A stretch of DNA of 64,000 nucleotides from Antedon mediterranea (taxonomy: Eukaryota; Echinodermata; Crinoidea; Comatulida; Antedonidae): the NCBI RefSeq assembly GCF_964355755.1, contig NC_092672.1, positions 930,001-994,000 of the forward strand, in the 5' to 3' direction. The position numbers and the translations under genes are program-made. Under the pieces are notes generated by a model that did not search any database, had not been told where the DNA came from, and saw only the letters and a list, made by a program, of their open reading frames with translations. Below are positions 2,636 through 44,300 of this stretch, one piece after another (the first letter of the stretch is position 1; the number at the start of each line of letters is the position of its first letter).

Positions 2636-5600
2636 TCAACGCGAAACTCCAAATATATCTTCATGATATCGGTCTTCGTCCTTTAAAGAAATGTTTATGT
2701 AAGTTAACTAACAATATAGAAAATGACTAAGGAAATGATTTCATATGCCTATATGCCTACAAATTACTTAAAAAATATTAATTAGTTCTATTCGAGGAAA
2801 TATCAGAGTTATTCAACATTTCTTTGAAGCTGGTTTGTGTAAAGCTCTGTCTACACTATCAAACTTAAAACTAAAAAAATGTGATATGACATCATCATTT
2901 CCATATATGGGCACATCCCATTTTGTTCACATAAAGTTTGATAGTATAGACAGCTTTATAATATTTAAACAAAATATGCCTATATTGTCACACTATGGTA
3001 AACAACGTATATGTAGAAAAATTAATATGGCTAATATGATATTGATATTTCCGATTCTACGTAAAGCTCTGTCCTGTCAAACTTTGACAAAAAAAAGTGT
3101 GATGTGGCTAAATATGGCATAGTGATATGACATCATCATGTCCACATATGAGCACATCACATTTGTTTGTCACATAAAGTTTGATAGTGTAGACGGAGCT
3201 TAAGATGAAGTAAAATAAAAGTAAAAATAATCGTTACCTTTAGTATCTGTAGCATAGCTTCGGCATTTGCTAATGTTGTGCATCCGTGAATTTGTATAAT
3301 GTCCAATAATGTCGTTATTACGCCTCTCGCCATGTTTGTCCCACCACATATGTACACGTGACCTCGCTGCTCGATCATTTTCGTGTATACAGTTAATGAA
3401 TGTTCAAGTAATTCATTTTGTACGTATCGCTATTTTAAGCAAATGTTTACATGTTATATATTAATATGTGTTTTCAATGCTTTCTTTTTAAATTGTTATT
3501 TATTTTTATGTCTTTAGGATGTGGCCAAGGATTACTAATAGTAATCAATAACTGTCCTATCAGATAGGTGGTAATCATCTGATACAACCAGTGAACCAGT
3601 TCACACCAGGGAAACCCCTACTTGTCTCGAATGATGAACTGGGTTCACGGGTTATAACTGTGTACACTGGACCTACGATTCATAGTCCTTACGGTTTATA
3701 AGTCTGTTTGGTGGATGCGAATATCCTCTACTCTTGGTGGGACCCATGGAAGATCAATGACTCGGAAGATCAATGACTCGGAAGAGTCGTTTTCATTGTC
3801 AAATTAAATTTGAGTATCCACTACCCCTAAGTCGTGCATTTGTTTTGTCTTACAGCAATGCCGTAGAGTTTAAATGAAATAGGTGATGTTAAAGTATGTT
3901 GCTTATATTACATTTATTCTAGCAAACCGAAATTGATAACTTTAGTTACAGAAAACCGATATTGTAAATGAATTCCTTTAAAGTGACGTAGTTGCTTCTG
4001 CGGAATAATTGGGGTTTTGTTGTTGAAATTTCCGCATAAACTTAAGGATAAAGCTAAAAAAGGTATTCCTACCTTTTGACCATTTTCTGTCTGTGAAAAT
4101 GCTACATTAACACTTTCTAATACACCTGACTGCAACAGCGCCTTCAATTCATTTTCGTAAACGTAGTCAATAGAGGGATGACGACAGCCATAAAACAAAG
4201 TGAATATAGGTTTCTCTTTCAAACTGGCTTTCATCTGCTGGTGTTGAAAGAAGCCTCGAAATGGCGCAATACCTGCTCCATTCCCAATTAGGATAATAGG
4301 TGCAAACGATTCGGAAGGAAGATGAAAACCTTCGCATCTTAAACACAAAATCAATGACATTAAATAACGCAAAACACTTTTTTGTCAAACTAGTTTGATA
4401 GTGTAGACATAGCTTTAGAAACTTTGATGAAAGAAACAACCATGATTAATTAGCAAAAGAATCTTAAAAAAGTATAACATGATTCTAAAGAAAACAAAAA
4501 CCTGAAAGTGACTCGTTTTATTGTTTTGTAGATTACCTTTTGATAGATAATGGAACGACATCTTCTGCCTTCATTTTTCGAAACCATCCGGAACATAGGC
4601 CATAACTGTGTTTTCCATTCTTAGCTGTTGTTTTTACACCTAAAAATAACAGTAAATTATAAATGTGAAATAAATTCTAATAACTTTTAAAAAAACGATA
4701 GCGTATAGGCCTACATTAATTTGGAAAAAGGAGGTATTAAGCTCTGTCTGCAATATAAAACTAGTTTGACAAAAAAAGTGTGATGTGCCCAAATATGGTA
4801 GTGATATCATCGTGTCCATATATGGGCACATCACATTTTTTTTGTCACATAAAGTTTGATAGTGTAGACAGAGCTTTATGTATCCTTAAAATTCCAAGTT
4901 GGTAAAAAGTCTGTGGAAAAAATTTGAAACCATGTCGGTATTATTGCCGCTCAAGCACTATACTTAAAACTGAAAGATATACTTACCATTAACTTTACCA
5001 CTAGTGAAATGCTGCTGTAAAGCCACTGTTAGGTGAATCTCATTTGCATAGGTCAAAAGGCATGAGCTGACTGAATAGTATCGAGGCCTAATGATAGGAA
5101 ACTTTTCAATGATGAGTTCTGCAGTAATCTTTACGTTGACAAACACGTCTAGGACGTCACATACAGATGGATTTCCAAGTGCATGCAACGTCTCTTTGTA
5201 TAAATCTTGTTCCTAGTTGATAAATCATGAACAATAAACGTTTCAAATATGTGTTTAATGAACAAAGGATCGGATGAGGAAAGATGGAGAACGATTCACG
5301 CTTGTCATTGGTCAACTCACTAGTGGGAACCAAACTTAACGGGCTAGACTCGATAAGTCAATTAGATTTTATAGCTCCTCCTTATGCTACTTTACCAAAA
5401 ATAAGAAAAAGAAAATAATTTTGAATTGAAATGAAGAACACAAAAACACATACGGTAGACAGTCGTTGAAGAATCTGTTTCTCAGCAGAATCTGACGACA
5501 TTAATGCAAAAGTTGTCAGAAGTTCCTGAGTTGGGGGCGCACTTATGTCTATAAAATGTTTCAATGCTGTTCGTACTGAGCAGGGCGGTAACCTGCTGCA

Positions 5601-8600
5601 TTTTCTCCATGATTTACTTGCGTCTAGAATAAAGTAAGAAGGTATATTGCAACGGTCGGTGGATTGTCGAGTTTAAATACAGGAAATGTATACAAGGTAG
5701 TATCAAACTTATTTGTAATCGTGGCACTTGCATTACTAGACCAAACATACATATGCAGTTTGCGTATGTAAATGTAGACTACTGTTTTTTTTTTATTTAT
5801 ACGCTGTGCTTTGAAAATCGTTTAATTTGAAATGTAACCGTAAGATATATGACAACTTCTTTATTTTCTTTGAACGATGAACATTTCAATATGACAATAC
5901 AAAATAAAATTTAAAAATTCTACAAGCAAATGCTTATAAAAAAAGAACCCTATTTAAATACCAATCTCAATAAATAGACTATAAATACCAAGTTTTTCAA
6001 CTTCAATGACGTCATCAAAAGTCCGTGTGTTCATTCTGCCAATAATTTTGTTCACAAGAATTTCATCGTTAGAGGGATAAACGATGACGTGGTCACCTGG
6101 GTCATACAATAAACCAGTTTCTTCAACATGTTCCAATCGAATAAGTAGCGTAGACCGACTGAAGAATAACAAGGTAATGAGAAAATGAGAAAAAATAATA
6201 ATAAATAAATAAGAGAGTCAGTTTTTCTCTGTAAAAGAACAAATAAATTAAAAAATACCACACAACCAAATACAGTAGAGCTAGCAAAACAGAGTTGGAG
6301 GGGCAGTCTTCACATCATCTGAAGTTGGCTCCAATTACGAAGAAGAAGAATCAGCAAATTTCAATGGTTATATCGGTCGGTTGGTTAGTCAGTCGGTCGT
6401 TCGGTAAACACTAACTCAAATTTGCACACGCGACTGGGCCAGCCATGTATATGGCCTTGTTCACTTACAATTAGAAGTCTTGGTTTGGCTAGATTGGTAA
6501 TCATGCTTCAATATTTAACTTTAAAAAAACCTTTGGAACGTCAAAAGAATAGATCTACACTTTTAGGTTTTAGCAGATCTAATTAGTTTGAACATTTACC
6601 TTGACGAATGTGATTGTAATTCTTTTTTTGAATGCAAACGACACGGTACAACCTTCCTCTTGTGTATCGACGAAAGAGAATCTATCAGATTTGGTTCTGA
6701 AGACTGACTTTTGACAACACGATAGTCTTTAGGATCCCATTCCAGTTCTTTCTTTATTTCATCGATTGACTTTAGTAAGATTGTCTGATCATACAAGGAA
6801 TTCTCATTGCAGATAGTCTATAAAATACAAATGATTATTATAAGCTTGAGTTTGGCTTATTTTCAATTTTTTCAAAGTGTCCAATAGGCCTGCTAGTGTT
6901 ATTATCAGAATTACAAACATTTTACTCCGGGATTTAACTCTAGCATACCTGAATCACTTTAAGCGTCCAAATCTGAAAAGACTCCGCCTGTTTGTACAGC
7001 TCATCCCCCTCACCGACTTCAAGTAATTGTTGTGCTCCAAGTTCGATGAGATTGTCGTTAACATCATGGGCAAATTTACAAAAAGTATGGTACGATCGAG
7101 ATCCAAGACCAAACACTGCAAATCTAAATATTAAAAAAGCGCCATCTAACGGCCACACAATGAACCAAATTGTCTGCTATACTTCTAGTTGAAAATTCCT
7201 TACCTGACATTCTTGAAATTCCTTTTACTATCATTTGGGTTGCAATCGTTTCCATTTTGATACGTGACTTTTGTACGTAGCAACGACAATTGGCGACCAA
7301 ATTTCTAAATGAATCAAGATTATAAAAAAAACAACTTGTTATACATACAAAAGATATACAGGCTAAATTATCACGTGAAACAAATACTTACCTACATGTA
7401 AATGAAACATCGTTGCAAAAAAATCACACTAGATACATAAAGCTTGGTTCTCAGTACGACGCAACGCAAAGACGCAGACGTAACACTAACGAGTTGACCG
7501 ATTACAAGCGACAGTTTAAATAATCCATCGCTTGTGATTGGTCAAATCACTTATGTTGCATTACGTCCTGTGTTGCGTCTCTATTGGGAACTAATTCACA
7601 ATACGTTTGCTGCCCTCCCTCTACAGTTTATGAATGTCAATACATACCAGTTATTGTTTTTACCTTTGCATTTTGTGGAGGGTCACCATTTCCAAATGTA
7701 CTTGTGATTATCAGTAAGATATGCTCTCTGCTCAGTCGCGTTGTGTCGTACTGATCCATCGGGTATACCTTAAAGCAGCAAAATACAAGTTTAACGCCTC
7801 CACCCTGGACATTCGCCCAATGAAACATAAAAAGAGTACTATTTATCCGCACATGACGAAAGGTGGAGCTGCTACCGTGCAATTGATCGTTAGACGTAAT
7901 TGCGCTAATAGTTACGTAATTTATATCGGTATGCTTACCTCAACATAAAATAAATTCCGATAGAATTCGGCAAATCTTCGTGCAAATTTTTCAGACTGGC
8001 CTGTCTCTGTTCCGAACAATATACATACCCTTTCACGTTGGGCAAGTGCCTTCATTGTCATGTATTGCACGCACATGATAAAACTGAAATGACAACATTA
8101 GTCAATTGTATTTTTTTTCTTTTCAAATTGTTTAAAATGTTTTTCTTTTCCAGCCTGTGTTTAGGGATCACAGCCTATAACAAAAATTAATGACACAAAG
8201 AAAAGAGAATGTCACATTTTATTTGTAATTGACATTAACTTCAGTGTACATGTCCGAATGGTCAACCATTCATCAGCTTCAACCACGCCACGTCACTTGT
8301 TTTGTCACGTATAGCCAAGAGACGTAAATATGCTTAGTCATATTAACTTTTTTTTTATCACTTTTTAACTTTTTATCATACTCATTCAACAGCGAGTAAC
8401 TCGCCAATTACAGGATGGATAAACTATTTAATAATTTATCGTGCTTATAAACTAAGTCTCATTTGAGGCTTAGGGAGTGGAGTTGAAAGAGTCATGAGTT
8501 ACAACCCTGCACTAGGTCAGGATTGAACCCGGGACCTTGGGATTGGAAGGCAAGCACGTTAACCACCAAGCTACAGCTCCACTACAGCTCCACTATTAAG

Positions 8601-11600
8601 TGTATATTGTTGTACTTTAGTTGATAAAGACGTACTAGGCCCTGAAATGAGATAATAAACATACGCCCTCAACTGTCACTCACATTGTAACTTCTTTCAA
8701 TGTGTATCGCTTCTGTTTAAATTGCAATTTCAATGTTGGATCCTGCCATTCGTGCGACTCAGCAGCATTGTCCTGTAAAAAAATGTGTGAAATTGAACTA
8801 AAAACCGTCGTTCAAAAATTCAGCACGCCATATTCAACAATCATTGCTGTGTTTAGAGACAGTTGAACGAATGCAATTATCTTTTTTTTTTCAATTATTA
8901 CTAGTGTGTTTATACCTGGTAATCAAATGAAGGTTTTAAATGATAATTCGTCATCTCCTGATGAAATACCTTGGTGGCGCTACCAGACAGTGGGGGAACT
9001 ATCCACACCCAGTCAGCTGGACAACCTCCCCTTAGCGTCTGCTCTTGTTTAAAATGTTTCATGAAGGCATCAGACGCTGTATGATGATCCCACAGTGTAA
9101 CGCCAGCTGTCTGAACAGAAAATAGAACAGGTTTAAAATCAGTTTTATGAATGGAGTTTAAATCAATACACTTTCCAGGAAGTTCTATAAATGGAGTTTG
9201 GACTATAATTTTGATTATTTAAGTTATCATATCAATTTTGTTTTTCTTTTTTTGTGTGTAAACCCTTATATTTTGTTTTTCTTCTGTGTTTTCTGTGTAT
9301 TCAGATTTCTATGTTTCATATGACAATACTGTAACGTACGGCGAGAGTCAATAAACTAAACCTAAATCTATTATAAATTATATATTTATAGTAACATTTC
9401 TTCAAACGTCACTCACCTGAAAACTGTAATTAACAGCCAGTGTTGTCTCCACCATTGCTTTGTCCTTCCAAAACGATGAGTTGGTTGACGTATCAAGACA
9501 CATTCGCTTTGCTATTGGCTACCAGTACAGAAACATAACAATGAGAATTTTATAAAAACTCACATAAAATCAATATTCGGATCGAACAGGTTATGCAGAG
9601 AAAAGGAAACTACATCTAATAAATCAATCAATCAAATCCGAAATTTTAAGAGGTCTAATTTAGTTTACTATGTATTGTTATTTTGTTCAAAGTGGGGTCA
9701 AAGTGGGGTCAAAGTGGGGTCAAAGTGGGGTCAAGGTAGATTACCACCGTCTATTTGAACCAAAGGTGTCTATACGTAGCAAATATTATTATTTCTGTAA
9801 TCTAAAGATGTCTACATTTTGACCCTCAGTTGCATGCTGCCATTGTATTTTTTGTACGGGTGATTGCATGATAATAAAGAATACGAAGTAACTGTTTTAC
9901 GAGAATAACAAGGTGTTTCTACGTAACAAAAAAATATTAGTTTTGTAATCTACAGACGTACAATGATATTTTGATATAATAAGTATACATACCTCTAACA
10001 TATTGTACCGTTGTGGATCACAAATATCGCGTGTACCTATCTCTGTTACCATGTACCAGCCGCTGAATGGTGCGGCTGGAAATTGAATTCCACCGCAATC
10101 GAATACCATATCAGACACTGCTGGTACGGCGTACCACTGAAGGCCTAGTTCATTAAACCATTCATATCTAGAGAAAATAGAAACAGATACACAATTGCGT
10201 AAAGTAAAATTTGGGAACCAAGCTTTAAAGCAAATAATACCATCTTTAGAACTTACGTTGGATGTGATATTGATACTTGCAAAACTAAATTCGAAGGTAT
10301 CTCAAAAACGTCTGGATCATTTCCATTTGTTGATAACACTAATGGAAGAATATCAAACATCCCTCTCTTTCCTTTCCATCCAAGTAATTGGCAAAGCTGA
10401 AACAAGATAAGATTTTATAATTTAGCACGTACAGTTGTTTCTCAATTATATATTATGAGAAGAATACACACGTCTATGAAAATATTTGGATTGCGCCAAG
10501 ATGTGAGACCACGACAATGGTATTTGTAGGCTAGCATGGTAACCACCACGCACGTTAGATCAACTGTGCGTATGCACATAATGACGCGAAAAATGAGCAA
10601 CCTCTAGGAGCTGGGCTGGTCGATACGCGCACAAAGTAGATGAGTAGACTTACACGAACATTGGAATGCGAATGTCAATGTTATGTTAACATGAACCCAG
10701 TTACCTCTAAAGTACACATACTTTTGTAAATTCAACATTTACTGGATCACCGATGGTCGTTCCGTCTTCCCTGATATACCCGGCATACCGTATCAACTGC
10801 GAGTTCCATATACGGCAATTCTTTTGTCCTGGTTGTCTTGCTGGGAATATTGTCATGGCCGATCTAGCAACAAACAATTAATTAACACATAGATTAGAAT
10901 AATAAGACATTTTAGTGTCTAAATAACGCCAAACGTTTTTGCGCGCCCGTAAAAGGGTGTAATATCACTGAGTCACATCTCAATCGTACATATTCGTCAA
11001 TAATAGGCTCAAATTACCTAATTTTTCCTTTATTCGTAGCAAATTCCAAGTGTCTACAAATGGCTTCAAACATGTCTTTTGTTGATGAAATATTACGGCA
11101 ATCATATACTTCTAGAGTGTTCCACTGTTGTCTTCCAATGCATCTAGGTGCGTTTCGCCAAGCTAACTTGGCGCCAAATACGAGTTCTTGGCGGGAAAGT
11201 TCATAATGACCCGTTTTTGTAATAGATTCTTCAACACACTTTATTCGAGCCAAGTGCAAATCTGTTCCATTTCTAAGATAGAAAGATAGTAACGGTACGA
11301 ATAAACACGAGGTGCAGTGCATATTATACGAATAGTTACTTACTATATTATAATATAGTCACAAGTAAAGTATTTATTTTACGTTTTGCATCATTTTTAC
11401 ATTGTATGAAATATTTAAATCTAAATGTTTTCCCTCGTACAATGTGTTTGATATTAAAAAATCTTAATCGTATCCCGTAACTTCTTTGCTATATCTAAAT
11501 AAATGAATAATTATTTTTAATCAATTTCAATTCAGAATGATAACTTGTAAATTGTAGGCGGTATTCATTCATTGTATTTATATCCATTTTGTCATCGTGC

Positions 11601-13543
11601 TAACAAACAAAGCAAATACCTGTACTATAATTAGCAAAATTATATGTTGACACGTAAAAATATGGTAAAAATTGTAGATAAACTAATATACCTGAAAAGG
11701 ATTTACATAAGGCATGAGGTAAAGTACAATTTAAAAAAACAAACAAAAGAACAGTAAAACAAACCGACTTATAATAATCTAAAAATATGTCAAACTTGTA
11801 GAACAGACACTCATATGGAATTTAAAATGGACCTGAAATGGATTTTCGATTTTTTTCATTTTAGAATGATGTTTTGGGGGCTATTAGGTGTTGCTAGAAT
11901 GTATATTGTTACAAAATATAAATTGGCCCTTTTGGGGAAAGCCCCATTTGAAAATCAAAAAAATTCGCGGGTGACGTCACTTTGCGAATATATTCCTATC
12001 CCTCCAATGGAAAATTTGCAGTTTTTTGGCTATAACTCTTGAAATCTATGGAGTATTTTCTAAAAAATGCTTGTGCATTTGCAGAAACGTATTTAGAATT
12101 TTTTTAGATAAAATTATTACCGTATAAACGGTTATTCATCGAGTAAATGACGATTTAAAATCTTAAAATCAACGGTTTTTTTCTGGCAATACCGAAGTTG
12201 GCCTGGCAACGTTGTCCGGGATACAGCTCCGTGCGCAATGATGCGTATCCATATTTTCCGTTCGTGTATTTTGTATATCGTTCGTAATTTATACTGCTAA
12301 AATTTGTTAGTTTCTTTAGTTTTTAGTTTAGCAGAATTAAATTAGTAATATGAGATGATAATTTATTTGTCACGAATCAGGCAGTTCGAAAACGAATTTT
12401 ATTCATATTTTACTTTGGCTTGACAATGAGCGCAGCAAGTTGTTGATATCGCTTTGGTCCTTGGATACACATGAAACGGAGCCTCGCCGCATGATGTGGG
12501 TGGTGGATCGACTCCGCGCTCTGGATTGGGGGCATAGAGGCCTAGTAAAGGTTTGGGAGGTAGGCCTTCTAAATTCGGGTTTTAGAACAAACGAAGTACA
12601 TTTTAGGGACCTATATTTCAACAACATTAGATATTGAATAAATTAGTATTAGTGTCAACGCTTCGCGTATCTTTCCAGGCCGTCGATCATTCACACTGAC
12701 TATCGGGCGGCATACACGCTCTCGATATCATCGTATGTATATGTGACGTCGTGAATATAGAGGCTTCCGACGGCCGTTGAAATAGAATATTGCAATGGCG
12801 TGAGTAATTTTCGCTAATTTACCATGGTATCTTAAAATTTCGTTTTTACTCAAAATACTATACATTTTGTTTTTATTTGTGTGGGTTTGTGTTAATTTGA
12901 TACATTTAAATAACATGTGTGAATTTCTTGAAAATCGAAATTCCATTTCAGGTCCATTTTAAGCGGATTAACAGATGTTAGAACAATGAAAAAGTCGAGG
13001 GAAAAATAAAATAGTTATTACTTACTGACCAATGTGCCGGTAATACGAATCAATGAATTCAATGGCTTCTAGACTCACATCAGCGAATGATAATTGCTTC
13101 GTGACATTGCCTGACTGTCTCACCAGTGCCCCTATACAATGCTGCTTAGTAGACACAAATAACACACAAAACAGTGTTTTAGTTTAATTTAGCAACGAAA
13201 TCTGCTGAATATTCAAATACACAGGAAATAGAAACCACGATAAAAAAAATATATTTCCAGTGCTGTATATGCACATACTATCTATTTGCAAAGTATCGAA
13301 GGAATATTTGGTAATACAGCATCTCATTTATATCACATGTGGTGCCTGTATCATGTAAGGTTAGGTTACTACTAGAAACACATGTGATGTTGTATTTCTA
13401 TGATACAGTAACGAGAATGGAAAACAACTTACCTTATTGCTTTCTGTGTGCAAAGTATCCCGGCTTCTTGTGTTCGAAATGTAGTCTTGCAGAGATATGT
13501 GTTCCTTTTTCTGCATTCTACAGCCTCTGGACCTATCCTCCAT
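2636..13543 (-). CDS. NOS: Nitric oxide synthase NOS-1 (divergent paralogue, 21 exons)
   Basis: Oxidises L-arginine to citrulline and NO with NADPH and O2. Exons, 5' to 3': 13433-13543, 13026-13141 (or to 13144), 11018-11272, 10722-10863, 10257-10396, 9993-10167, 9417-9518, 8916-9110, 8684-8772, 7939-8083, 7664-7768, 7204-7304, 6949-7123, 6600-6817, 5989-6158, 5454-5623, 4987-5212, 4537-4639, 4073-4337, 3238-3429, 2636-2680. All introns are GT-AG and the total (3243 nt with the 13144 acceptor) is a multiple of three, giving about 1080 residues, short for a NOS. Order: oxygenase (heme Cys about 121, in [10 protein letters not shown]), calmodulin-binding linker, FMN, FAD and NADPH domains. I found no internal stop or frameshift. 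Compared with NOS-2 it lacks the first zinc Cys, the C-terminal tail and two introns, and several conserved residues differ. An active enzyme is likely but not certain. Confidence 0.95.
2843..2955. repeat. MITE family A, copy 1
   Basis: Short inverted-repeat element with termini AGCTCTGTCTACACTATC and its complement (TAGTATAGACAGCT). It lies just upstream, in genome coordinates, of the NOS-1 last exon, inside the final intron. Flanking triplets are TAA and TTA. Confidence 0.75.
3065..3200. repeat. MITE family A, copy 2
   Basis: Same family as the element at 2843; internal sequence GATGTGGCTAAATATGG and a terminal TAGTGTAGACGGAGCT. TAA on both sides is a 3-bp target duplication. In the last intron of NOS-1. 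Confidence 0.8.
4381..4415. repeat. MITE family A, end fragment
   Basis: Only one end remains (CAAACTAGTTTGATAGTGTA plus GACATAGCTT). It lies in the NOS-1 intron between the exons at 4073-4337 and 4537-4639. Confidence 0.55.
4740..4875. repeat. MITE family A, copy with TTA duplication
   Basis: Complete element, AGCTCTGTCTG to GACAGAGCT, flanked by TTA on both sides (4737-4739 and 4876-4878). It sits in a NOS-1 intron. Confidence 0.8.
6361..6440. repeat. Fragment of the GTCGGT/CGCGACT repeat
   Basis: Contains repeated TCGGT words and CACACGCGACT, the same end sequence as the AGTCGCGTG elements near 53.8-56.6 kb. In a NOS-1 intron. Probably a decayed copy. Confidence 0.4.
6949..7768 (-). other. 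NOS: NOS-1 FMN domain core (exons 11-13)
   Basis: Exons 7664-7768, 7204-7304 and 6949-7123. STFGNGDPP and [11 protein letters not shown] are flavodoxin-type FMN loops, and [13 protein letters not shown] continues the fold. Between them the connecting segment (exon 7204-7304) is only 34 residues, clearly shorter than the autoinhibitory insert of vertebrate neuronal and endothelial NOS. The 101-nt exon corresponds to two exons (71 + 30 nt) in NOS-2. Confidence 0.88.
7440..7592. repeat. MITE family B (AAGCTTGGTTCCCACTAG ends)
   Basis: Starts AAGCTTGGTTCTCAGTACGA and ends with TATTGGGAACTAA; the interior has GACGCAACGCAA, GTTGACCGATTACAAGCGAC and TTGTGATTGGTCAA, all recurring in the other copies. 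In a NOS-1 intron between the exons at 7204-7304 and 7664-7768. Confidence 0.7.
7939..8772 (-). other. NOS: NOS-1 calmodulin-binding linker and start of FMN domain
   Basis: Exons 8684-8772 and 7939-8083. About residues 425-461 form a basic, hydrophobic stretch ([11 protein letters not shown] then [10 protein letters not shown]) directly before [11 protein letters not shown], the place where all NOS bind calmodulin. TETGQS is the FMN phosphate loop. The split ATT codon falls at the same position as the NOS-2 intron. The hydrophobic spacing differs from NOS-2 ([15 protein letters not shown]), so calcium dependence may differ; this is inference. Confidence 0.8.
8455..8582 (-). mobile_element. 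tRNA-derived SINE
   Basis: Read on the minus strand, TAGCTTGGTGGTTAACGTGC fits an RNA polymerase III A box and GGTTCAATCC fits a B box, about 30 bases apart, followed by a non-tRNA body. It lies in the NOS-1 intron 8084-8683. No intact tRNA cloverleaf follows, so it is a SINE and not a tRNA gene. The 5' edge has a small duplication (CTACAGCTCCAC twice). Confidence 0.6.
9689..9735. repeat. 11-bp tandem repeat (TCAAAGTGGGG) x4
   Basis: Four perfect head-to-tail units in the NOS-1 intron 9519-9992. AAAGTGGGGTCA resembles half-sites bound by nuclear receptors, but with no other support I treat it as a simple repeat. Confidence 0.8.
11822..12962. mobile_element. 1.1-kb inverted-repeat DNA element in NOS-1 intron 2
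   Basis: The left end TAAAATGGACCTGAAATGG is repeated inverted at the right end (CCATTTCAGGTCCATTTTAA), giving termini of roughly 20-30 bases. The interior holds no recognisable transposase, so it is non-autonomous. It fills most of the largest NOS-1 intron (11273-13025). Confidence 0.6.
13433..13543 (-). CDS. NOS: NOS-1 first coding exon
   Basis: Encodes 37 residues from the Met at 13543 to a strong donor AAG|GTAAGT. The core LQDYIS...[10 protein letters not shown] matches the start of the NOS oxygenase fold (K-NW/Y...DTLH in other NOS). A TAA lies directly before the ATG in frame, and the context AAGTAAATGG has A at -3 and G at +4, so this Met is the likely start. Almost nothing precedes the oxygenase domain: no PDZ, no myristoylation glycine and no long linker. 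It joins in phase 0 to exon 2, which starts HC or QHC, so the usual CxxxxC zinc pair keeps only its second Cys. Confidence 0.8.
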
Positions 13544-15640: not shown

Positions 15641-15865
15641 AAATACTCACTTTAAACTGGAAATCATACAAAATGAAAATGAAAAAATGTGTTTCAATCT
15701 CGTAGCTCTTGGATGTATGTCTATTAAGGTACCTTTTTATAATAGCTTATAATATATATCTACGCATTTCTCTAAAAATAAATACTCAAATAGCTAACAA
15801 CAACTTTAATTCTTAAAAAGTGGGTTGTCGTTTTTCTTTTGGTATGTCATTGTTGGTGAGACTTA

Positions 15866-16771: not shown

Positions 16772-16875
16772 TTAGCATTTTAATGCCCTATGCTCTAAAT
16801 GTCTGGTAATTCAAAAGGCCTTTATGTTATTCTCCACAAACAGTACTAACAAGTGTGGCGCTATACAAAGACTTA

Positions 16876-29300: not shown

Positions 29301-32300
29301 TGTTGGTTGTATTGTACTTATACACGACTTCAACACTTTACATGTATTGTACTTATACACGACTTGAATACTTTACATGTATTGTACTTATACACGACTT
29401 TAAACTTTACATGTATTGTACTTATACACGACTTGAATACTTTACATGTATTGTACTTATACACGACTTTAACCTTTACATGTATTGTACTTATACACGA
29501 CTTGAATACTTTACATGTATTGTACTTATACACGACTTGAATACTTTACATGTATTGTACTTATACACGACTTTAAACTTTACATGTATTGTACTTATAC
29601 ACGACTTTAAACTTCACATTTTATTTTACTTTGGCTGTATTGTACTTTATTATTTATCTAAAGACGACTTTAATACTTGACATTTCTTTCTATGACGTTG
29701 CTTCTATTCTGTATGGGTACAATAAAAATAAATTGGTTTGTTGATTATAAATATGGTTTGTATAAAGTATACAAATTACAATTGCACAAAACATTGTATT
29801 CCTTAGATCGTAAAACCTTTAAAAGAAGCCAATGCACTTATATTTTAAGAATTCTCTTAAAGCCGATCTATCAGACAGGAGATAATAACAATTCAATAAA
29901 TTAACAATTTATTATGTAGAATTACTTATGATCAGACTGTGTCTCCATCTTATGATCAGACTGTGTCTCCATCTTATGATCAGACTGTGTCTCCATCTTA
30001 TGATCAGACTGTGTCTCCATCTTATGATCAGACTGTGTCTCCATCTTATGATCAGACTGTGTCTCCATCTTATGATCAGACTGTGTCTCCATCTTATGAT
30101 CAGACTGTGTCTCCATCTTATGATCAGACTGTGTCTCCATCTTATGATCAGACTGTGTCTCCATCTTATGATCAGACTGTGTCTCCATCTTATGATCAGA
30201 CTGTGTCTCCATCTTATGATCAGACTGTGTCTCCATCTTATGATCAGACTGTGTCTCCATCTTATGATCAGACTGTGTCTCCATCTTATGATCAGACTGT
30301 GTCTCCATCTTATGATCAGACTGTGTCTTCATCTTATGATCAGACTGTGTCTTCATCTTATGATCAGACTGTGTCTTCATCTTATGATCAGACTGTGTCT
30401 CCATCTTATGATCAGACTGTGTCTCCATCTTATGATCAGACTGTGTCTCCATCTTATGATCAGACTGTGTCTCCATCTTATGATCAGACTGTGTCTCCAT
30501 CTTATGATCAGACTGTGTCTCCATCTTATGATCAGACTGTGTCTCCATCTTATGATCAGACTGTGTCTCCATCTTATGATCAGACTGTGTCTCCATCTTA
30601 TGATCAGACTGTGTCTCCATCTTATGATCAGACTGTGTCTCCATCTTAGGAAACCAAATTTCAGAAATGAAGAAACTGTGGTTTGGTATCATCCAACAAT
30701 CTTTTAACCCGAATTGTTCTTTTATAATTCTATTCAGACAACTGTAACATGTTCGGAACAACGTTGCTTCGGCTCTATGATGTTTCCAGAAAAAGCTTCG
30801 ACAGATTCAAGACCAAAAGAAATAGTGTTGAGCCACGCTGTTGACTTTATCAATGAGTATTACGACCATATTAAAAAGTACGTTTTTACCATTGTACCAT
30901 GATCGCCACGCTTAAACTCAAATTGTGCTCCACTTTTTCGTTAAGTTCGTCTCTAAATAGATGTTATAAGCCCGTTTTGAAATTACAATTTACTTTTGCA
31001 CCCCATACACCCTTTCTACAACACAACAAATACAATTGTTTAATTGTCTTTCATAATAATTTGTTCTAACTGTATTGAAATGGAGTGAGAATCTGTTTGG
31101 GCTTTAGCCTATTCTCACTCCTGGTTATTTTTCATTGGTGACCGAATACATATTATTATTATTATAACCAACTTTCACGTTCTTTGGGCATCCTACAAAT
31201 TGGTACTTAAAATACTCATAAATAATTACGAACATTATTACAATTTTTAAGACGGTCAACCCCACTATATGAAGGTAGGATGAAGGAAGTACAGAAGAGC
31301 ATTGAAGCAACAGGAACGTACAAACTCACAGAAAAAGAACTAACATTTGGAGCTAAGATGGCTTGGAGAAACTCCGCCCGATGCATTGGCAGAATACAGT
31401 GGTCTAGATTACAGGTATACGACGTAATTTAATTTCTTACTAACGTTTTCATTTAAAGTGAAATTTGGAAAAAAATGATGGTAATGATGATGTTATTACT
31501 TCCTGTTTTTTGGCTCTTTATTATTTATGTTTAAATTGTTATTTTGTTTACCTTGAGAGAGAAAGAAATAAATGTTATTATGAATGAATAAATGGTCGAA
31601 TAATGTTGATTGTGATGTTGAGTATTGGTGTGACAATGTTGATAACATTTATAATGTTATAAATAATGCTCTTAACACATAAGTATTATGTAACTTGTTA
31701 TCATAATGTTGTATTGATAAGGTAAGGAGAGTGTAAATATTGATATGTTATCAATATAGGGTATTGTGCTATATACACCACACCTAGAAACCTATAATAT
31801 CAAAACAATTGATATTAATAGATGCCTTATATTATTATATAGAACATAATGCAAGTGTCTTACATTTTAAATAGCAAACAATATGGGTTTTACAATGGTC
31901 AAGAGATGCATAACAGCTTGGTTCTCACTAGCGACGCAACGTAACGCAATTTACGCAACGTAAAACGTGGTTACCACTAGCGACGCAACACAAGGACGTA
32001 ACGCAACGCAAGTGAATTGACCAATCACAAGCTATGGCTTATTCGCTTGTGATTGCTAACTGTCTATAACTTCGCTTGTCATTGGTTAAAACGCTTGCGT
32101 TGCGTTTACGTCCTTGCGTTACGTTCTAGTGGGAACCAAGCTTAAGAAAGTTCCCTTCCAATCATTGTCCCCGCCTGAGTGAAATCAAACCTACTATGTT
32201 TGGAGCACTATTGTTTCGTCGGTTCCCACTTACGCAATACAGCACTTGCGTCAATACGTCGTATCGTTACGTTGCGTCGCTTGTGGGAACCAAGCTTAAA

Positions 32301-35300
32301 TGGTAATGTCCAACCAAACCAAGTGAACACACACTTTGAACAACTTTGTTTACGGCTGTACTATGGTGACCATTCTCGAATATACCTTTGATCGACATAA
32401 AGTCAATTTGTTTGATAAGATATTCAAAATACAATGAAGTCTACAATCAAATCATCATTATTATCTCGTTAGTTTGGTTTAGTTTAAATATGGTTTGTTA
32501 GCTTCTGTGGGAGTATTTATCTATTTGTTTCGAGGGATAGTGCCCATCATGACTAATCAATGTTGTAGAGGTTTAATCCACTCCACGTCATTTTCATAAA
32601 TAGGAAATAAACAGACATATACTCATTTAAGCTTCCTTTCCACGTAACGACGTAATGTCAGCGTAACGCAAGTGAGTTGACCAATCACAGGCGACATGTC
32701 GAATGATTCTCGGGTCGTGATTGGTAAAATCATTTGCAGCGCGCTTATGTCCTTGTGTTGCTTGGAAACCAAGTTTTTAAAAAAATGACATGCTTTGTCT
32801 TTCTTCGTCATGTATTCAGATTTTGTAAATAGTCTATTGAAAAAAACATTTAACATTATTAAAAAGTTAATTCACTACAGTGTATTTTTTAATACTGTTT
32901 AAAATTTAAAATGTCAAAGGTCAACGCAAATGGTCACACCAATGCGTAAAGTCCACACTAAATAATAATCAACATTCAGAACGCTGTTATGAATACGTGT
33001 ACGTAATAACTATATTATATTTATTTTTGTAGGTGTTTGATGCCCGGAATGTAAGCACGGCTTCCGAGATGTTCCAAGCTATCTACTCACACATTGTGTA
33101 TGCAACCAATAAAGGAAATATAAGGTGTGTTTGATACACGCAGGCCTGTTTATACTTATATTTACCTATCTACCTTGTTCAAGCAGGGAAGAGTTCAACT
33201 ACATTTAACATAAATTGTAATTTAACTCTTCCCTGGTCCAAATACTTTCACTTGCACTGATGTGAAGGACTAGTGTTACTAACTGTTTAGGTTGTTTTAC
33301 TTTATGGTTTTGATTTACCTTTTCGCTTTTTTTTTGTATCTCCATTAAGATCCAGCCACTGATACCCACAGCATTTTAATTTTTTTCTGTAATTTACCTT
33401 TGGATTTATATATGTTCAAGTACATATTTTTACCTGGCAACGTTATGTATGCAAAGTACCGAGTAAAATATTAATCAAAACATGAAACACATTGTTTCAA
33501 AAGTTCTCTTAAACATGACAACATGGTAATGTAGACAATGGCAAACAAATACACATTCATTAAAGCATGGTGGAACAGATTATGTTAGAAAATAAGTGTT
33601 ATAAAATCCTGACGACGTAGCAATGTACGCGTAATGTACTGGTACTGCACGCCTTTCATTTGAACGTTCTCAGAACATGCAATGGATCTATCAAACTCAT
33701 ATTGGTTTCGTAATAATAGTTATAGATTATTCTAGTAATATCAACAAATTCAGCTAGACACTTATTGTGTGCAAGTTTATACAATTTGACTCAGCTGCTA
33801 ACGCAAGGCACACATATTACCACGTATCCATAGTGAATAATCCCGGGCTAACCGTAATTTTAATGCGTCTAAATAACAATTATGAAACTCTACCAAATCA
33901 TTATAAAAACACATACAAAGTGACAACATACTATTAACGTTAAAGAAACATACCTTTATATAGACGATTTTCCTGGATAGCCTAAAAAACTATTATTATT
34001 GTTTCCATTGAGGTGGTTATTTTATAATCTAAAATAAATAATCTAAAATAATCGAATATAGGCCTACTTTGCGTTTACACATAAATATAACAAAAATATA
34101 AATGTCAAAATAGGCCTAAGTGAATTAAAAAATGACTAGTTATTGTTTTAAAGTACTGAGTTGTGATTTAACCATTTTCTTAAATTACTCTTGCTTTTAA
34201 TTTGTTTAACATTCTGTTATGCATGAACATTTTTAAATATTCATAAAAAAAATGAACACGGATTTAATTTGCTTGTTTATTATGCATATTGCACGTAGAC
34301 TCAAGGAGTGTGAGATTACTCTGGTAGAACAACTATACTAGGTCCAAGGATTTATCCTTGGTGGCAAGTTTGTTCTAAAATACTTCACCGGCAAATATTC
34401 ATTTACAATTAATTAAACTTATCCCATCAATGATTTAATATTCTACATCATTCTGCTGACGAGAGAGAGAGAGAAAAAGAGTAGATAAATATAACATTTT
34501 TACGGTTATTTCCCTCCAGATCCACGATGACCGTGTTCCCGCCAAGGGCCAATGGAAAGGACTTCCGCGTTTGGAACAACCAGTTAATCAGTTACGCGGG
34601 GTACGCGCAACCGGACGGTTCCATTATTGGCGACCCGGCAAATGTGGAATTCACAGAGGTAAATATTACTTGATTGTGATTTGAATAGACCGCTTTGAAA
34701 GCTGTTGTAATCTATGCATTGTATAATTTATCCGGTATTTATATTTAAACAAAAACCGAGATATCCTCTTCTAGAGAACGTGATATGTCAAATCGACCAA
34801 TCAGCGCTTTAAGTTCGGTATAATAACAATTCCAACTGAACTGTATCACTTAAAATTCAAAATATTTCATTATGTTTTATGATGATCTCACCAGGTGTGT
34901 AGGAGTCTTGGTTGGAAAGGTGCTGGTGGCAACTTTGACGTCTTACCCCTTGTACTCTCCGCCAATGGAAAAGAACCAGAGATGTTTGACCTTCCACTGA
35001 GCGCAGTTCTACAGGTCGAATTTTCTCACCCTTCGTAAGTTATAAGCGGTATCAACACATATTATTAATAATAGTTTAATATGCCGTTGATGGTTGTGTC
35101 TCAGTCTGTAACGGTATTTTAATATGACAATTACAGGAAAGCAAATGTTTGGATGGAATATTAAAAACCACAAATTCATGTAAAAGGACCCTTAGGCCTA
35201 AGTGTTTCTATTATTATAGTAGGTCTATGGTGCTATAGATGACAATAAAGTAACATCAATTAATCATTGATGCGAATAGCTTGCGCGACGCATGGTGGGA

Positions 35301-38300
35301 AGGGTTTGGGAGCAAACGTCACGACGCGTACGTACGTGTCGTGACCCAAAGCCGTCCCATCATGCATTGTGCAATGACGTTCCTCGCGAAATCAATCTAT
35401 TTGCAATAAACCTTATAGATCAAGTATTTTTAATTGTAGTTTTGATTGGTTCGCTGCTCTTGGATTAAAATGGTACGCGCTACCGGCTGTTTCCTGCTTG
35501 CTATTGGACATAGGCGGGATCGAGTTTACCGGAGCACCTTTCAATGGATGGTATATGGTAACAGAAATTGGTGGAAGGGATCTCTGCGATCCACAGCGGT
35601 ATAATATGGCAAAGGTAAGAAAATTCCCTTCATGTTTTAATGCACACAAATAAATTTTCTGCATGGAAACGTTTGTATTCTTGCAATTTAAACTTTTGGT
35701 GCAGACGGATAAAGTGACGAATCTACAGAACTTCAAAATAAAATACATTTACTGTACTACCAAACATTTATCTAATTTTCAAAAATTTGCTAATGGACAT
35801 GCAGGACGTGTTACAGATTATTATCTCCTGAAAAAATAATTTTGAGTAAAAATGTCGATATGAAAGTTATTTATTACCCGACTAAACTAATGTAAAAAAA
35901 TAGTAAACCGGACGCCCATAGCTTAGAACATAATAACTTTTATGTTTTTAGGATTTATATTGTGATTTAATTTTTTTTTCTCCAGAAAATAGCACAAGGC
36001 ATGGGCTTGGACACCAACAGTTACGCGTCACTTTGGAAAGATCGTGCTCTCGTTGAAGCGAACCTAGCAGTTCTGCACAGCTTTCAGGTAACTAAACATT
36101 CTGTGTAGGACATGTACATATATAGATACATTTATACCCGTCTTATGTTAGTCCAGTCGGCGTTTCGATTTTTTTCTGGAAAAGAAAGAGCTCAATTAGT
36201 ATACGTATGAAACGCCATATATGCCAAAATGTTTATCTTTTTACTAATATTAAAGTAAAAACTTCGTCTAGAACACAGACTAAGATATAATATGTATGAA
36301 AGACAAGCGAAAAGAACACAATAGTATGTTGTGGTAAATAAATCATGCAGTTAAGGTTGAAATAAAGTGAAATCTCATTAATTTACTAGTTAACATTTCG
36401 TTCAATAGAAAGCTGGAGTCACAATTGCAGATCATCATTCTATGGCGGACTCTTTCCTAAAACACATGGACAACGAACAACGCTTACGCGGAGGCTGTCC
36501 TGCTGATTGGGTGTGGATTGTACCACCAATATCTGGAGGCATTACACCAGTGTTCCACCAGGAGATGCTTAACTATAAACTAAGACCTTCATTTGAGTAC
36601 CAGGTAGAGAACGTTCTTTAAAAAGAGTGGACAAAGTTTGATTAATAATTCTATAACATGTATAAACTGTTTCATTGTTTGAAGGTTTTTATGGCGAAAT
36701 CATGACTGTATTGATCGAAACGTCGAGAAACTCAACAGTTCCTATCTGAACAAAACATACGTGGAGTACCGTGGTATATCAACATTTTCTAACTACTTAA
36801 CGTTTTATAACGATCTTATTTTCTAAATGTAATACTTAATAGGCTGATGCTTGGAAAATCAACTCTGTAAGAAAGAAGGCTGAAGAAAGTCCAAAACACA
36901 AGATGAAAGGAATCACCTTCAAGAAAATCGCCAAGTACGAACTTTAATTTCTTAAAAATAAAAGGTTGACCAATTACACTGCTCTCCACAGGAGAGCAGG
37001 TATAAGTCGAATTGGCAAAACTTTTGATGAGTTCAATAAGTGAATTTTCTAAATGACGAATGACATTTTTTTTAGAATTTATCAAATTGGATGTTTATTT
37101 TTTTCAGCGCGGTTTCTCTTTCTACTGCAATGATGAACAACGCCATGGCTAAGCGTATAAAAGCGACGATTCTCTATGCCACAGAAACCGGAAAGTCTGA
37201 ATACTTTGCCGATAGACTTTATGAGGTTTACAAGTACGCTTTTAATCCAAGAGTAAGTATTTGGTAGATTCAATAATCGTGGAAATTGAGGGCCTATCCC
37301 AGCCCCTGTTTTTCATAGTTGACAAAACATTGTGATTGTAGAACTACACGACGCTCCACTCGGCTGTTATGCGCCAATCGATATGCGCGTTGCCGCGTGA
37401 AAACGAAAATTGACGTTCGATTGCATTTGCTGGCGCCAGACCGGAACCGTGCCGGAACGAACCGGTGTGAAAGACCCTTAATGCTCTTAATTAAAATGTT
37501 TAATTTCTGCTGACTGTTAAGCATGTACTGGAATTATTAACAATTTACTACACGTACCAATAAACATTTTAAGCCAGAACAGACGTGGCTATCTAGCTGG
37601 TCTCTCCGCCGGGAGACTATACAAAATACAATATTTAACTCTTTACCAGCATTTTATTAGCCTGGACGTGTCGATTATTATTTTATCTTTAGATAATGTG
37701 TATGGAGGAATATGATATTACTGATCTTGAAAATGAGAACCTGCTATTGATCGTCACAAGTACATTTGGCAATGGAAATCCTCCATCAAACGGCGAGGTA
37801 AGTGATGGCTTTCTGACGATTGGGTTTATCGCAAATATCTTGATTTCGCGATAGACGTCATTGCACAATGCTTGATGGGAAGAGTTAGGAGCAACAGCGC
37901 CATCGTATAATACAAACTGATAGTGGAGCTGTTGCTCCCAAACCCTTCCCATTATGCATCGCTCACGCAATTTTCGATAAACCTTATTGACATCTTGGCT
38001 ACGTATTCGTAATAAATTTGTCAAATAAAAGAAGACGACACTACACTTACGCGCGCGCCTATGAGCTGTCGATGACGCGGTGAAGGAATAAAAAAAAAAT
38101 GAAGAGAAGGTCGTGCAACAACACCCTCTCCCCATGGAGGTATAAACCTCCATGCTCTCCCTCTCTTTATCTAAACTCTTTTTGATTTTGAATAATCTAA
38201 AACTGGCGTTTGCATTATTTCTCAGAGCTTCTATGAGAATTTGCAAGAACTGATGCTTGATGAAGAAAGATCTTTAATGAACTTAAGCATGCCAAAGTAA

Positions 38301-41300
38301 GTTGTATAATTATTATTATGATATTTATTTTAGCAAATAGAAAAAGTGAAGGAAAGAAAGTAATGCTTTAAAAACACGTTTCAGATATTGAGAGTGGGGA
38401 TGAAAAAATATTACTTATGTTACAATTGGAAATTTGGAACCATTACATAAATAAAGATATACATTTTAATAGAAAGAGGATAATCGTAAATAGGCAAAGC
38501 TATTCGACTTCCGACTCATTTACGTACCTATTCATTGGTTGGCTGAATGGGGGTTTGTGAATTATAGAAGGTCAGAGCCATATATATAAAGAGTTACGAC
38601 ATTGAAGATTAGAAGCCATGTTTGTGTCAAAGAATTCGCACGCTGAGGGCGCGCGCGTCTATTTTGTATAGCGTTTTCCTAGTGTAGTTCATGCATTATT
38701 TTTAAATTTTTTTTGTCTATGAAATAACGCTTATATTCCGTTTTTATTTTAGTAATTAATTTTATTAATGGTATTAATTTTGTAACATATATATATTGTA
38801 TTTATAATAACAAATAATAAATGCTAGGACCGACATGCAAGTCAGGATACATCAAAGCATGAACCAATACAAATTCACCCCTCTTTTTATACAGTATGCT
38901 CTCCGTGTGTTTTTGATACACACTTTCCGAGACTCGTTCATCATTTCATTTGTAATAATTTGCATTTAATTATTTTAATATTGTTCATACCCTATTCAAT
39001 ATATTAACAATTATATCCACGACACTTTCTTATTTTATTTAGTCATCAAAGCATGCATTATGAATTGAAAATATTACATAATTGTTATTAATAGGACGTA
39101 GTTATGGGATGTTTCGTTCCAAAATCAATCAATCGAACTTTATAATGTACTAGCGCACGCGCGCGCAATATTCTTTGCCGCAAGTACTTCTGTACGCTGT
39201 GCACATCGATATTTCACCGTAGAATGTGCAATTACATTTTTTTAAATATAAGAAAAAGTTTAAAGTATTTTCTTGCTCCTATACTTTACATGCAACGGAG
39301 ACAAGTTTGACACAAATTGATCTGCATCACGTGACTATAATCCAATGTCGTAACTCTTTGTATATATGGCTCTGTAGACGGTTGTAAAACAACGCCCTCT
39401 TTACAGATTCATATTTGCAAATTTCTGTCAAAAAGTACAGATCTTTGATACACTATAATATTTAAGTACATTAATGTTATAGTACGTAAGTAACGTTGAA
39501 TCCAATTTTGGTACAGGGACTATAGAAAGAAGCATGGAAAAATCAGGTACTTTATATAAATAATTACTAACACTATAATAATGAAATGGTTTCTTTGTTG
39601 TCTTTGCTGTCTTTGCTGTCCTAATAAATAAATGTTTAACATAATACGTTCTGGATGGCGATTCAGCTTAAAAAAACATTTGACACACATGGCGTGCCAT
39701 AGACCTGAGCTGAAATAATAAAAACATTCGTAAAGAAATCTAATCTCTTTATTCAGTCTTTGGTATACATGTGTTGCTTGGACAACACTGTATTGTTGTT
39801 GGTCATAATAACTGAAAGGTACTAAAATTAACGTTATAACATCATAATGTTTTGTATTCTAGTATTATTCACCACCTTAGAATAATGATACACACATAAT
39901 ACGAAGAAAAACAACTTTCATAGCTATAACTTCTAGCTATACTAATAACTGCACAAGGTCAAGGAAAAGAATTAACAACATTGATAGTGATGAAACATAA
40001 CTATTTATTTATGCACATTTCTTCTTTTTGAATTACAATTTGTTGTATTGGTAATAATAATTAATGATGTATAAGCTTTAATGCCCATAATGTTTTAATG
40101 TTTATATTTTTAGTATATACATACAATGATTTCAACTTTTGCTGCTTTTTGTATTATATTTTTATAAATAAATAAATTTTTCCGCCTTCATGAAAAAAGC
40201 ATGAATCTTTGGTTTGTCTTAAGCTTGGTTCCCATTAGGACGCAGCGCAGTGACGTAAGCGCAACGCAAGCGAGTTGACAAATGGCAAGCGACAGTTCGA
40301 ATATTCCATATTTGCACAGACGTTCTTGTGTCATATTTTCTATAGTGTAACAGCAATATTGTTTTCTCTTAGGTTTGCAGTGTTTGGTTTAGGCTCCAAA
40401 GCGTACGTTAAATTCTGTGCATTTGCTAAGGATCTCGATCGTATTCTCATTCGTCTCGGTGGTGAACGCATTTTCAAAGTTGGTGAAGGAGATGAACTCG
40501 GAGGTCAAGACGTGTCATTCAATAATTGGACACGTGATGTATTTAAGGTAAAAATTCGATAATAAATCAAACGGTTTCTAAAAATAAGATGGATCGATCA
40601 AAATGAAAAACAGTGAAGTAAAGAATGTATCACTTCCATGAGAAGATGCTACTTCTTTTTTTACAATATTGCAGAACATATATTTTTACTGTTTATGTTG
40701 AATTTCAGAAATCGCAAGAAGAATTTTGTCTTGAAGATGACGAGAACTATAAGGAAGCCGTCAAGATGCTGACAACAGAGGGACAGCAGTGGGACAAATC
40801 AAATTGGAGATTTGTTGAGACAAATAAGAAAGGAATAGATGTCTCAGAAGGACTCGGTACTATTAATAAAAAGACAGTCAGCGCATGCAAGATTTTGTCA
40901 GTAGAAAACTTGCAATCTGAAAAATCTGGGTAAGTCTGGGTTCTAAAAAAAGCATAATGACTTTTAACAAACAGCGGATATGTTTTTCCCCCGGGAAATA
41001 AGAAAGAAGCGTATAGGTTTACTGACGGCTTATACAGGAAAGTAAATGAGAAATAAAGTTTAAAACACTTTCCAGTTTTCCATTTTAATGTTGAAAAACA
41101 AACCATCCTGCTCAAAACATAAAAATATGGAAACAATTCGTGGGAAGCGTTGGAATGACGGAAAACGTTTCAATAGAGGAGAGAATGTCTAAGTTTTAAA
41201 ACTTCTGCTTTCAGTCGTTCTACTATTCTAGTGAAGATGTCAACAGGAGGCCTAGATGACATGGGTTACGAACCAGGAGATCATCTGGCAATATTCCCAG

Positions 41301-44300
41301 CCAATGAAGACAGTCTTGTCAATCGAATAATCACAAGAACTGATTTACAAGGCATTCAACCAGATGTTGTCACTAAGTTGGAGAAACAAGAAATGAAAAC
41401 GACTCTTCTAGGTAAGCTAGACTCCTACTCTACTACTTAAGCTCCGTTCACACTATACAATGCAGTTACGTTCTAGAAGGCAATGTTATCAATCAATCAA
41501 AGGACAGTTGTCAAATTAGTATCGGTTCGTGTACAAACGGAACCAATACTTGGAACAATTATTGTTGACGACTCCACCAGGAACCATGAAACGTAAAATT
41601 CAATGAATTACCACATCACATTTTAAATATTTTTAATTACTGTGACAGTATTAGGCCTACTCATAACCTCAGAACAGAAACTGAATTCGAAATTCCCTTC
41701 ACAAGACTAACTTGCAGTCAACAGTTTATACACATATATGGACCAAAATTGTGGAAAGAATTCACTTGTAATGGTGGTAATAAACCGGTTATCTTAAAGA
41801 AACAAAATAAATGTATAAAAAAACAGGTTAAAAAATACTTTTTATCACTATATGCTGATTAACAACACCTTTGTTTATTTAAGTTCTATATACTTGTTCT
41901 TATGTAAAGGGTCCTACAAAAAAACGAAGCTACAGCTTTTTTATGCAGGATCCCTTGTCTCAGTTGTACTGTAATTATGATGTACTGTAATTGATGACTA
42001 AATAAATGTGGAATAAATGTGAAAAATGTGAAATCAATCAAAAAAATCTCTATTTTTTATTCACGGAAAAGTACAGCATACGAGATAAAAAACTTGTTCA
42101 CCACCAAATGTGACCACCAAATCAAGTCGAGATGGCCACACGCCGCTACATTATTCCACAGTGAAATAACGTAGCGGCGGCGTGTATATTCACTGTGAAA
42201 TAACGTAGTGGCGTGTATATTCACTGTGGAATAACGTAGCGGCGTGTATATTCACTGTGAAATAACGTAGCGGCGTGTATATTCACTGTGAAATAACGTA
42301 GCGGCGCGGCGTGTATATTCACTGTGAAATAACGTAGCGGCGCGGCGTGTATATTCACTACTTATTATTGTCTAGAATGAATGGTGGGTTACACTAAGTT
42401 TGTTTTTCTTCCAGGGACTGTAAAAAATTGGAAAGTAGAAGACCGTCTGCCTCAGTGTTCTTTGAGAACAGCTTTATCACGATACTTGGACATTACGTCA
42501 CCTCCTACTCCAGACTTTTTAGCTTTGCTTGCTAATTTCACCGACAATGAAGATGACAAGAAATATCTGAACACTCTAGCCGCTGTAAGTATACTATGAT
42601 AAATGAACCTTTAGGCTAACTTGAAACGATAATATCGAGGAGTACTCTCTAGAGACAGTGCATAAAACAATTGTTTTTATTTATCTTTAGGGAACTTCAT
42701 TGTACGAAGATTGGAAGTTCGAACATCACCCAAACTTAGCAGAAATATTAGAAGAATATTCAACTGTTGAAATTCCAGCTTCTCTTCTAATAGCAGAGTT
42801 ACCGATGTTAAAGCCTAGATATTATTCCATTAGTTCAAGTCCCCGTATGTTTCCAGGAGAAATTCATCTTACAGTCGCCGTTGTTATTTATACAACTCGT
42901 GGTAAGTACTTTAATTGGCGACGCTGGAGACACCCTTTTCCAAATCAGGTACAAACGGCAAGTCCATTTGCAATCAAGTCCTATTCAACTTTGGTGTATA
43001 GGTGTGGAGGATGGCAGGAGGAAAAGAGAACTTATATCATTTGTTAATATTCACACTCATCTTGTGAACATCGTTTGGTTGCATGACGCCTTGATCCTAT
43101 TATGTATACGAAAATAAGCGATTGATTTAATATTACTTTTTTTGAGTGGTAACTATAACAAAAAAATAAATCCTAAACATTTGCATTTGTTTTTCAGAGG
43201 GCCAAGGCGTGGAACACAATGGAGTTTGCTCAACATGGCTTAGCACAAGAAAACAAGGAGATGAAGTGGCAGCTTATACTAAATCGTAAGTATCTAAACA
43301 AAATAAGAATAAGCCTACTTTACCAGAAAAATGACATTCGGTGATATTATGTTACTTATGATAATATATTGTTTTATTTTGAAACATTGAGTAAGAGATT
43401 GTAACAATGGAAACTCTTTAATACTTTTGGAAACATCTGGTGTTTTGCAAACCTGTACTGCACTCTTATTCTCTCAACAAAATGAAAATCACTGTAAAAA
43501 AAACAATTAATGGTGATTAAAATGATATTTTGAATACAGAGCGAGTACGTTCCACATCCCAAGCAACCCATCAACACCAGTGGTTATGATCGGTCCTGGC
43601 ACAGGTATTGCGCCTTTCCGTGGCTTTTGGCAAGACAGAGTACACTACTTAACTGACAAGCAAAACAACGGCAAATTGTCAGCAGATTGGAAGCTGTATT
43701 TTGGGTGTCGACGTTCTGATATGGATCACATTTATAAAGATGAGATGCAAGATGCCCTTAACGGCGAAGCTCTTACTGACTTATTTACCGCGTATTCACG
43801 AGAACCTGGTCAGCAAAAGGTGAGTTTATTATTACTTAGCTTTTACGAATATTCTAGAAAACGGAATGTTTTCGAAAGTTGTTTCGTTACGATGCATGCA
43901 CTATTATTTGATTTATAATAATAATCAAATTGATTTGAATTGTCCGTGTTTTATTGTTTAAAAAATGCGCAAATGGGAAGTTAGTAATTAAATACAAACA
44001 CTAGCAGAAAGAGAAGAACAAGTTTTAAACTTGTGACGTCCGAAAAGGAAAAAATTCAATCGTACACTATAAACTAGTTTGTTCCGTTTCAATATCAACG
44101 TATACCGTGCACGTTGACATGCGCAGTGTTTGTTCCGTTTCAATATCAACGTATACCGTGCACGTTGACATGCGCAGTGTTTGTTCCGTTTCAATATCAA
44201 CGTATACCGTGCACGTTGACATGCGCAGTGTTTGTTCCGTTTCAATATCAACGTATACCGTGCACGTTGACATGCGCAGTGGGTGTACTGTATATTATTC

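Follow-up and report, generated by a model that had tools for sequence, protein, structure and literature searches.

NOS genes of the window and their surroundings

The window, a stretch of 64,000 nucleotides of the Antedon mediterranea genome (contig C3, positions 930001-994000), contains two nitric oxide synthase (NOS) genes, NOS-1 and NOS-2, whose models we rebuilt exon by exon from the genomic sequence. NOS-1 lies on the minus strand at 13144-2636, and its gene body, taken from the heme exon through the stop codon (2636..11272), comprises 19 exons with an intact open reading frame. In order of transcription, starting at 11272 and ending with the stop at 2636, these exons measure 255, 142, 140, 175, 102, 195, 89, 145, 105, 101, 175, 218, 170, 170, 226, 103, 265, 192 and 45 nt. 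A preceding exon (13026..13144, minus strand; QHCIGALV...SYYRHIG) has a firm donor at 13026 and a tentative acceptor at 13144. It supplies the second cysteine of the CxxxxC zinc site at the dimer interface (QHC); the first is a serine should the exon continue upstream past 13144, and otherwise lies in an unfound exon, the 5' end of NOS-1 not having been located. The NOS-1 protein combines oxygenase, flavodoxin, FAD and NAD domains (PF02898 at 532.9 bits, PF00258, PF00667 and PF00175, respectively), and its heme-ligand motif, RC[IV]GR, is present as RCIGR in the 255-nt exon. All 18 introns of the 19-exon model are canonical and short (80-643 bp; those of NOS-2 span 106-1618 bp, and those of NOS-3, a third gene described below, reach 11 kb). 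Together with the intact frame, these introns rule out that NOS-1 is a pseudogene or a processed copy.

NOS-2 lies on the plus strand, where 22 exons were found from a 140-nt zinc-motif exon to the stop codon (30738..45092), with lengths of 140, 163, 92, 139, 140, 175, 102, 195, 92, 145, 105, 71, 30, 175, 221, 197, 170, 211, 88, 280, 189 and 141 nt. AG/GT borders are present at all placed exons, which form a single open frame of 1086 residues. NOS-1 and NOS-2 are diverged duplicates that are divergently transcribed. The entry phases of the 19 NOS-1 exons (2,2,0,2,0,0,0,2,0,0,2,0,2,1,0,1,2,0,0) equal the NOS-2 series once the NOS-2 exons of 163 and 92 nt, and those of 71 and 30 nt, are merged, indicating that only these two introns differ over the modelled part of the genes. 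The intron 5' of the 255-nt exon is likewise common to both, the NOS-1 exon that ends at 13026 being in phase 2 and joining the 255-nt exon in frame. The claim of the initial annotation that all other shared introns have been retained therefore holds.

A search of the genome with PF02898 and a NOS-2 protein query identified three NOS genes, all on the same contig: the two in the window and NOS-3 (C3:8806530-8853794, or 8.806-8.854 Mb, minus strand). The NOS-3 exon series, taken from eight stretches with the calmodulin exon lying outside them, is 143, 163, 92, 142, 140, 175, 102, 195, (calmodulin exon), 145, 105, 50, 114, 175, 224, 194, 170, 211, 79, 280 and 192 nt. NOS-3 thus shares the exon series of the other two genes and has both of the introns in question, whereas its introns are much longer and its nNOS-like 114-nt loop exon is absent from NOS-1 and NOS-2. 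In a tree of the oxygenase domain, NOS-1 and NOS-2 were grouped (83/88), with NOS-3 outside, the vertebrate sequences separate and NOS-1 on a long branch. The tree thus suggests, with moderate support, that NOS-1 and NOS-2 are closer to each other than to NOS-3.

Several other features were observed around these genes. Beyond the 3' end of NOS-1, a plus-strand gene (240-1977) reads by eye like a cytochrome P450, with a heme-binding GRRSCPGE near 1797. Between NOS-1 and NOS-2 (15858-18188) there are direct repeats of approximately 208 bp at 99% (15859-16066 and 16869-17076) and approximately 0.7 kb at 94% (16065-16775 and 17452-18188). A minisatellite with a 24-bp unit (approximately 30 copies, 99% match; 29925-30648) stops 89 bp short of 30738, the start of the first NOS-2 exon placed. 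A short element with inverted ends AAAGCTCTGTCTACACTATCAAACT is found, mostly paired, at 2841, 3178, 4392, 4853, 25344, 25449, 46431, 46552, 51239 and 51357. These ten ends in the window compare with none expected, similar copies are present in NOS-3 introns, and the element looks like a miniature inverted-repeat transposon.

The heme-exon site

The fused heme-ligand exon of NOS-1 (11018..11272, minus strand, 255 nt) has ag...gt splice sites on either side and is the counterpart of the 163-nt (31252..31414) and 92-nt (33033..33124) exons in the NOS-2 gene model, which are separated on the plus strand by an intron of 1618 bp (31415..33032). The intron missing from NOS-1 is of phase 0 and lies between L-E and V-Y-D. 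The NOS-1 exon aligns without gaps to NOS-2 31252-31414 joined to 33033-33124, and 255 equals 163 + 92 in both NOS-2 and NOS-3, with both flanks conserved and neither gain nor loss of coding bases at the junction. This indicates that intron removal preserved the length exactly. Of the two sites, exact loss is demonstrable at this one only, and here it is well supported.

A qualification to strict exactness is conceivable. On the 3' side of the junction NOS-1 reads GTATATGAT, whereas the exons of NOS-2 and NOS-3 read GTGTTTGAT, and the two bases that differ are those that open the NOS-2 intron as it now stands, GTATACGAC. The match hints, at most, at the retention of a few intron bases, as if, in a microhomology join inside GTNTNYGAY, the opening bases of the intron had been kept and those of the following exon dropped. 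We consider such a join unlikely, given that only two sites are involved, with a chance of agreement of the order of 0.1-0.3 by our own estimate since A is favoured in donors and in this AT-rich DNA, that the NOS-3 intron begins GTAAAT, and that NOS-1 evolves fast. If it did occur, intron-less NOS-1 orthologs of near relatives would not be expected to read GTGTTTGA at this position.

The loop site

The second fused exon of NOS-1 (7204..7304, minus strand, 101 nt), which encodes the loop before FAVFGLG, corresponds to a 71-nt exon (38226..38296) and a 30-nt micro-exon with a GT donor (39517..39546) in the NOS-2 gene model, separated on the plus strand by an intron of 1220 bp (38297..39516). The intron missing here is of phase 2. 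In NOS-3, a phase-2 loop intron (50|114) falls after PENGE and before the (F/Y)xVFGLG motif, and the loop, which reads SFGRYLVELGRSEEGNG|KASFRWDKF...SGVLANVR, resembles the nNOS autoinhibitory loop.

The rebuilt lengths and phase confirm that the 101 nt of NOS-1 match 71 + 30 in NOS-2, just as 255 matches 163 + 92. Over the loop exon as a whole, the two genes are only 37.6% identical at the nucleotide level, so that agreement at the 71|30 boundary is one of length and phase, and identity in the loop interior is not above that of codon shuffles (p=0.13). The sequence of the loop is hypervariable, which leaves phase and context as the basis for judging its introns homologous, and the sum of 71 and 30 may be partly coincidental. 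Indeed, exon lengths vary across the three genes (101 in NOS-1, 71+30 in NOS-2, 50+114 in NOS-3), and in NOS-1 the junction could alternatively lie at nt 53, where AATGG|AAA is read as in NOS-3. Both observations favor an inexact loss in a loop of variable length, which we regard as a serious possibility a little short of even odds; set against it are a 36-nt window chosen post hoc around position 71, in which NOS-1 matches NOS-2 better than shuffles do (p=0.004), and the status of NOS-2 as the nearer relative of NOS-1. Thus, of the seamless, precise junctions that the initial annotation described at both sites, the one in the heme exon stands, and seamless removal of the loop intron is plausible.

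The nNOS-like autoinhibitory loop is kept in NOS-3 (C3:8815218-8815926) and absent from both NOS-1 (7204-7304) and NOS-2 (38226-39546), a state that recalls the vertebrate inducible NOS. Loss of the intron might have locked NOS-1 into a loop-less, inducible-like state, an idea we hold to be very doubtful. Were it correct, a control element could no longer be spliced in or out of NOS-1 at this site, where mammals have the nNOS mu cassette and, next to it, the autoinhibitory loop.

Polarity of the intron differences

Comparison of NOS-1 with NOS-2 alone cannot decide whether introns were lost from the former or gained in the latter. Our comparators for polarity are NOS-3, in which both introns were read directly from the genomic sequence, and mammalian NOS genes, for which intron presence was deduced from two papers and residue numbering. 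NOS-3 has the 163|92 intron with the same exon lengths as NOS-2 and in phase 0. If the bovine 1d0c chain begins at residue 39, its alignment places the heme Cys at 186 (bovine numbering). The heme ligand of human NOS3 is Cys184, which puts codon 194 ten residues beyond it, as in NOS-2. Variants in intron 4 of human eNOS (NOS3) are given as c.582+N, and Glu298Asp is assigned to exon 7 (PMC7843626). Since 582 is 3x194, intron 4 is of phase 0 and falls between codons 194|195. Taken together with a heme ligand at Cys184, this places the human intron at L-Q|V-F-D, which is the 163|92 site of NOS-2 and NOS-3, and the vertebrate intron that the initial annotation placed at this boundary is thereby identified as NOS3 intron 4. 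When the NOS-3 exon lengths of 92, 142 and 140 are added after c.582, human exon 7 becomes c.817-956, which contains c.894, as reported (PMC7843626).

With respect to the loop site, nNOS mu carries its 34-residue insert between Lys839 and Ser840 (PMC7725317). In nNOS chain 8t1j (1429 residues), Met828 closes the first aligned stretch, and counting onward gives ERK|SYK at 839|840. Mammalian NOS1 is thus spliced at the loop site, a junction matched by position.

The sister copy and outgroups therefore carry introns at the same site and phase, at 163|92 in NOS-2, NOS-3 and human NOS3 and at the loop in NOS-2 and NOS-3, with mammalian NOS1 joining the latter by junction position. Mapped in this way, both sites are occupied in NOS-3 and in mammals. 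For both introns to have been gained in NOS-2, parallel insertion at the same sites would be needed several times; we reject this highly improbable alternative on the basis of the NOS-3 and mammalian introns. Two introns, one at each site, have very likely been lost from NOS-1, in agreement with the preference for loss expressed in the initial annotation. The common ancestor of NOS-1 and NOS-2 would have carried both introns, as NOS-3 and the mammalian genes do.

Literature searches found neither tables listing 163- and 92-bp exons for NOS genes nor comparisons of NOS intron positions, and introns go unmentioned in the placozoan and chordate NOS papers. Among viral contigs searched for metazoan NOS DNA, one of 134 kb (IMGVR_UViG_3300027857_000012) contains an intronless NOS oxygenase gene (L013 4788-5978) that is 50% identical to the animal query; it has no reductase domain in the same frame and is uninformative on introns.

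Mechanism of intron loss

The initial annotation attributed the losses to recombination with cDNA or to exact deletion, and both routes are kept here. NOS-1 still has the nine introns that lie between the two lost ones in NOS-2, as well as the others farther downstream. A single full-length cDNA conversion does not explain this pattern, whereas two independent local events do, and we infer that NOS-1 shed its two introns through two such separate events. In-register direct repeats at the 163|92 site measure 4 nt in NOS-2 (AG|GT) and 5 nt in NOS-3 (CAG|GT), which is enough to permit exact deletion. Several retained introns show a junction repeat of 4-5 nt as well, so the repeat does not single out the lost intron; in Drosophila, lost introns show no enrichment of direct repeats (PMC3296678). 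At the heme exon, deletion between these short splice-junction repeats would excise the intron exactly and is the most likely route, and since the loop site tolerates changes in length, a less exact deletion would survive there too. We put the chances of deletion at about even, leaning slightly toward local deletion over cDNA.

Nearly as likely, though below an even chance, is that two short mRNA-templated tracts of gene conversion by cDNA each removed one intron exactly. Exact length at 163|92 comes automatically by this route, and reverse-transcriptase-mediated loss is reported to be common in Drosophila and rodents (PMC3296678, PMC3652778). The two separated single-intron losses, one of them near the 5' end and with nine introns kept between them, would however need two separate short tracts. 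Loss of adjacent introns together and a 3' bias are the features usually quoted for reverse-transcriptase-mediated loss (PMC3652778), and NOS-1 displays neither of these, which is weak evidence with two losses. In addition, no retrocopy of any NOS was found in the genome search, which scores best candidates only. We considered and rejected the possibility that NOS-2 had converted NOS-1 in the neighbourhood of the lost introns, as the fused exons are 57.6% and 37.6% similar to NOS-2, compared with 44.8-67.7% for other exons, and are thus not unusually NOS-2-like; the exons next to the losses do not stand out in this respect either. The NOS-2 counterparts of the lost introns are two of the three longest NOS-2 introns, and the combination of short introns in NOS-1 with loss of long ones fits a deletion-prone locus, without constituting a test of it. 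Overall, the evidence does not distinguish cDNA patches from microhomology-mediated deletion.

Comparison with known systems

The introns at the human NOS3 intron 4 site and at the nNOS mu site are old. Human NOS3 intron 4 and the mammalian NOS1 Lys839/Ser840 junction occupy the same sites as the NOS-2 and NOS-3 introns, in the same phase where it is readable, whereas NOS-1 lacks both. As a case of intron loss from a duplicated gene, NOS-1 is ordinary and well polarised. Such loss is well known as a phenomenon, this NOS gene instance of it looks new, and our understanding of NOS or of intron loss is unchanged by it. Its value is as a clean, internally controlled example, with three paralogs in one genome, on which ideas about the mechanism of intron loss can be tested. 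Loss of introns from one of two paralogs has been described for segmentally duplicated rice genes (PMC1779517), Drosophila (PMC3296678) and mouse and rat (PMC3652778). As in those systems, one duplicate lacks introns that are kept by the other copy and by outgroups, and the reading frame is preserved; unlike in those systems, the introns concerned here are two non-adjacent internal ones in a single fast-evolving NOS copy.
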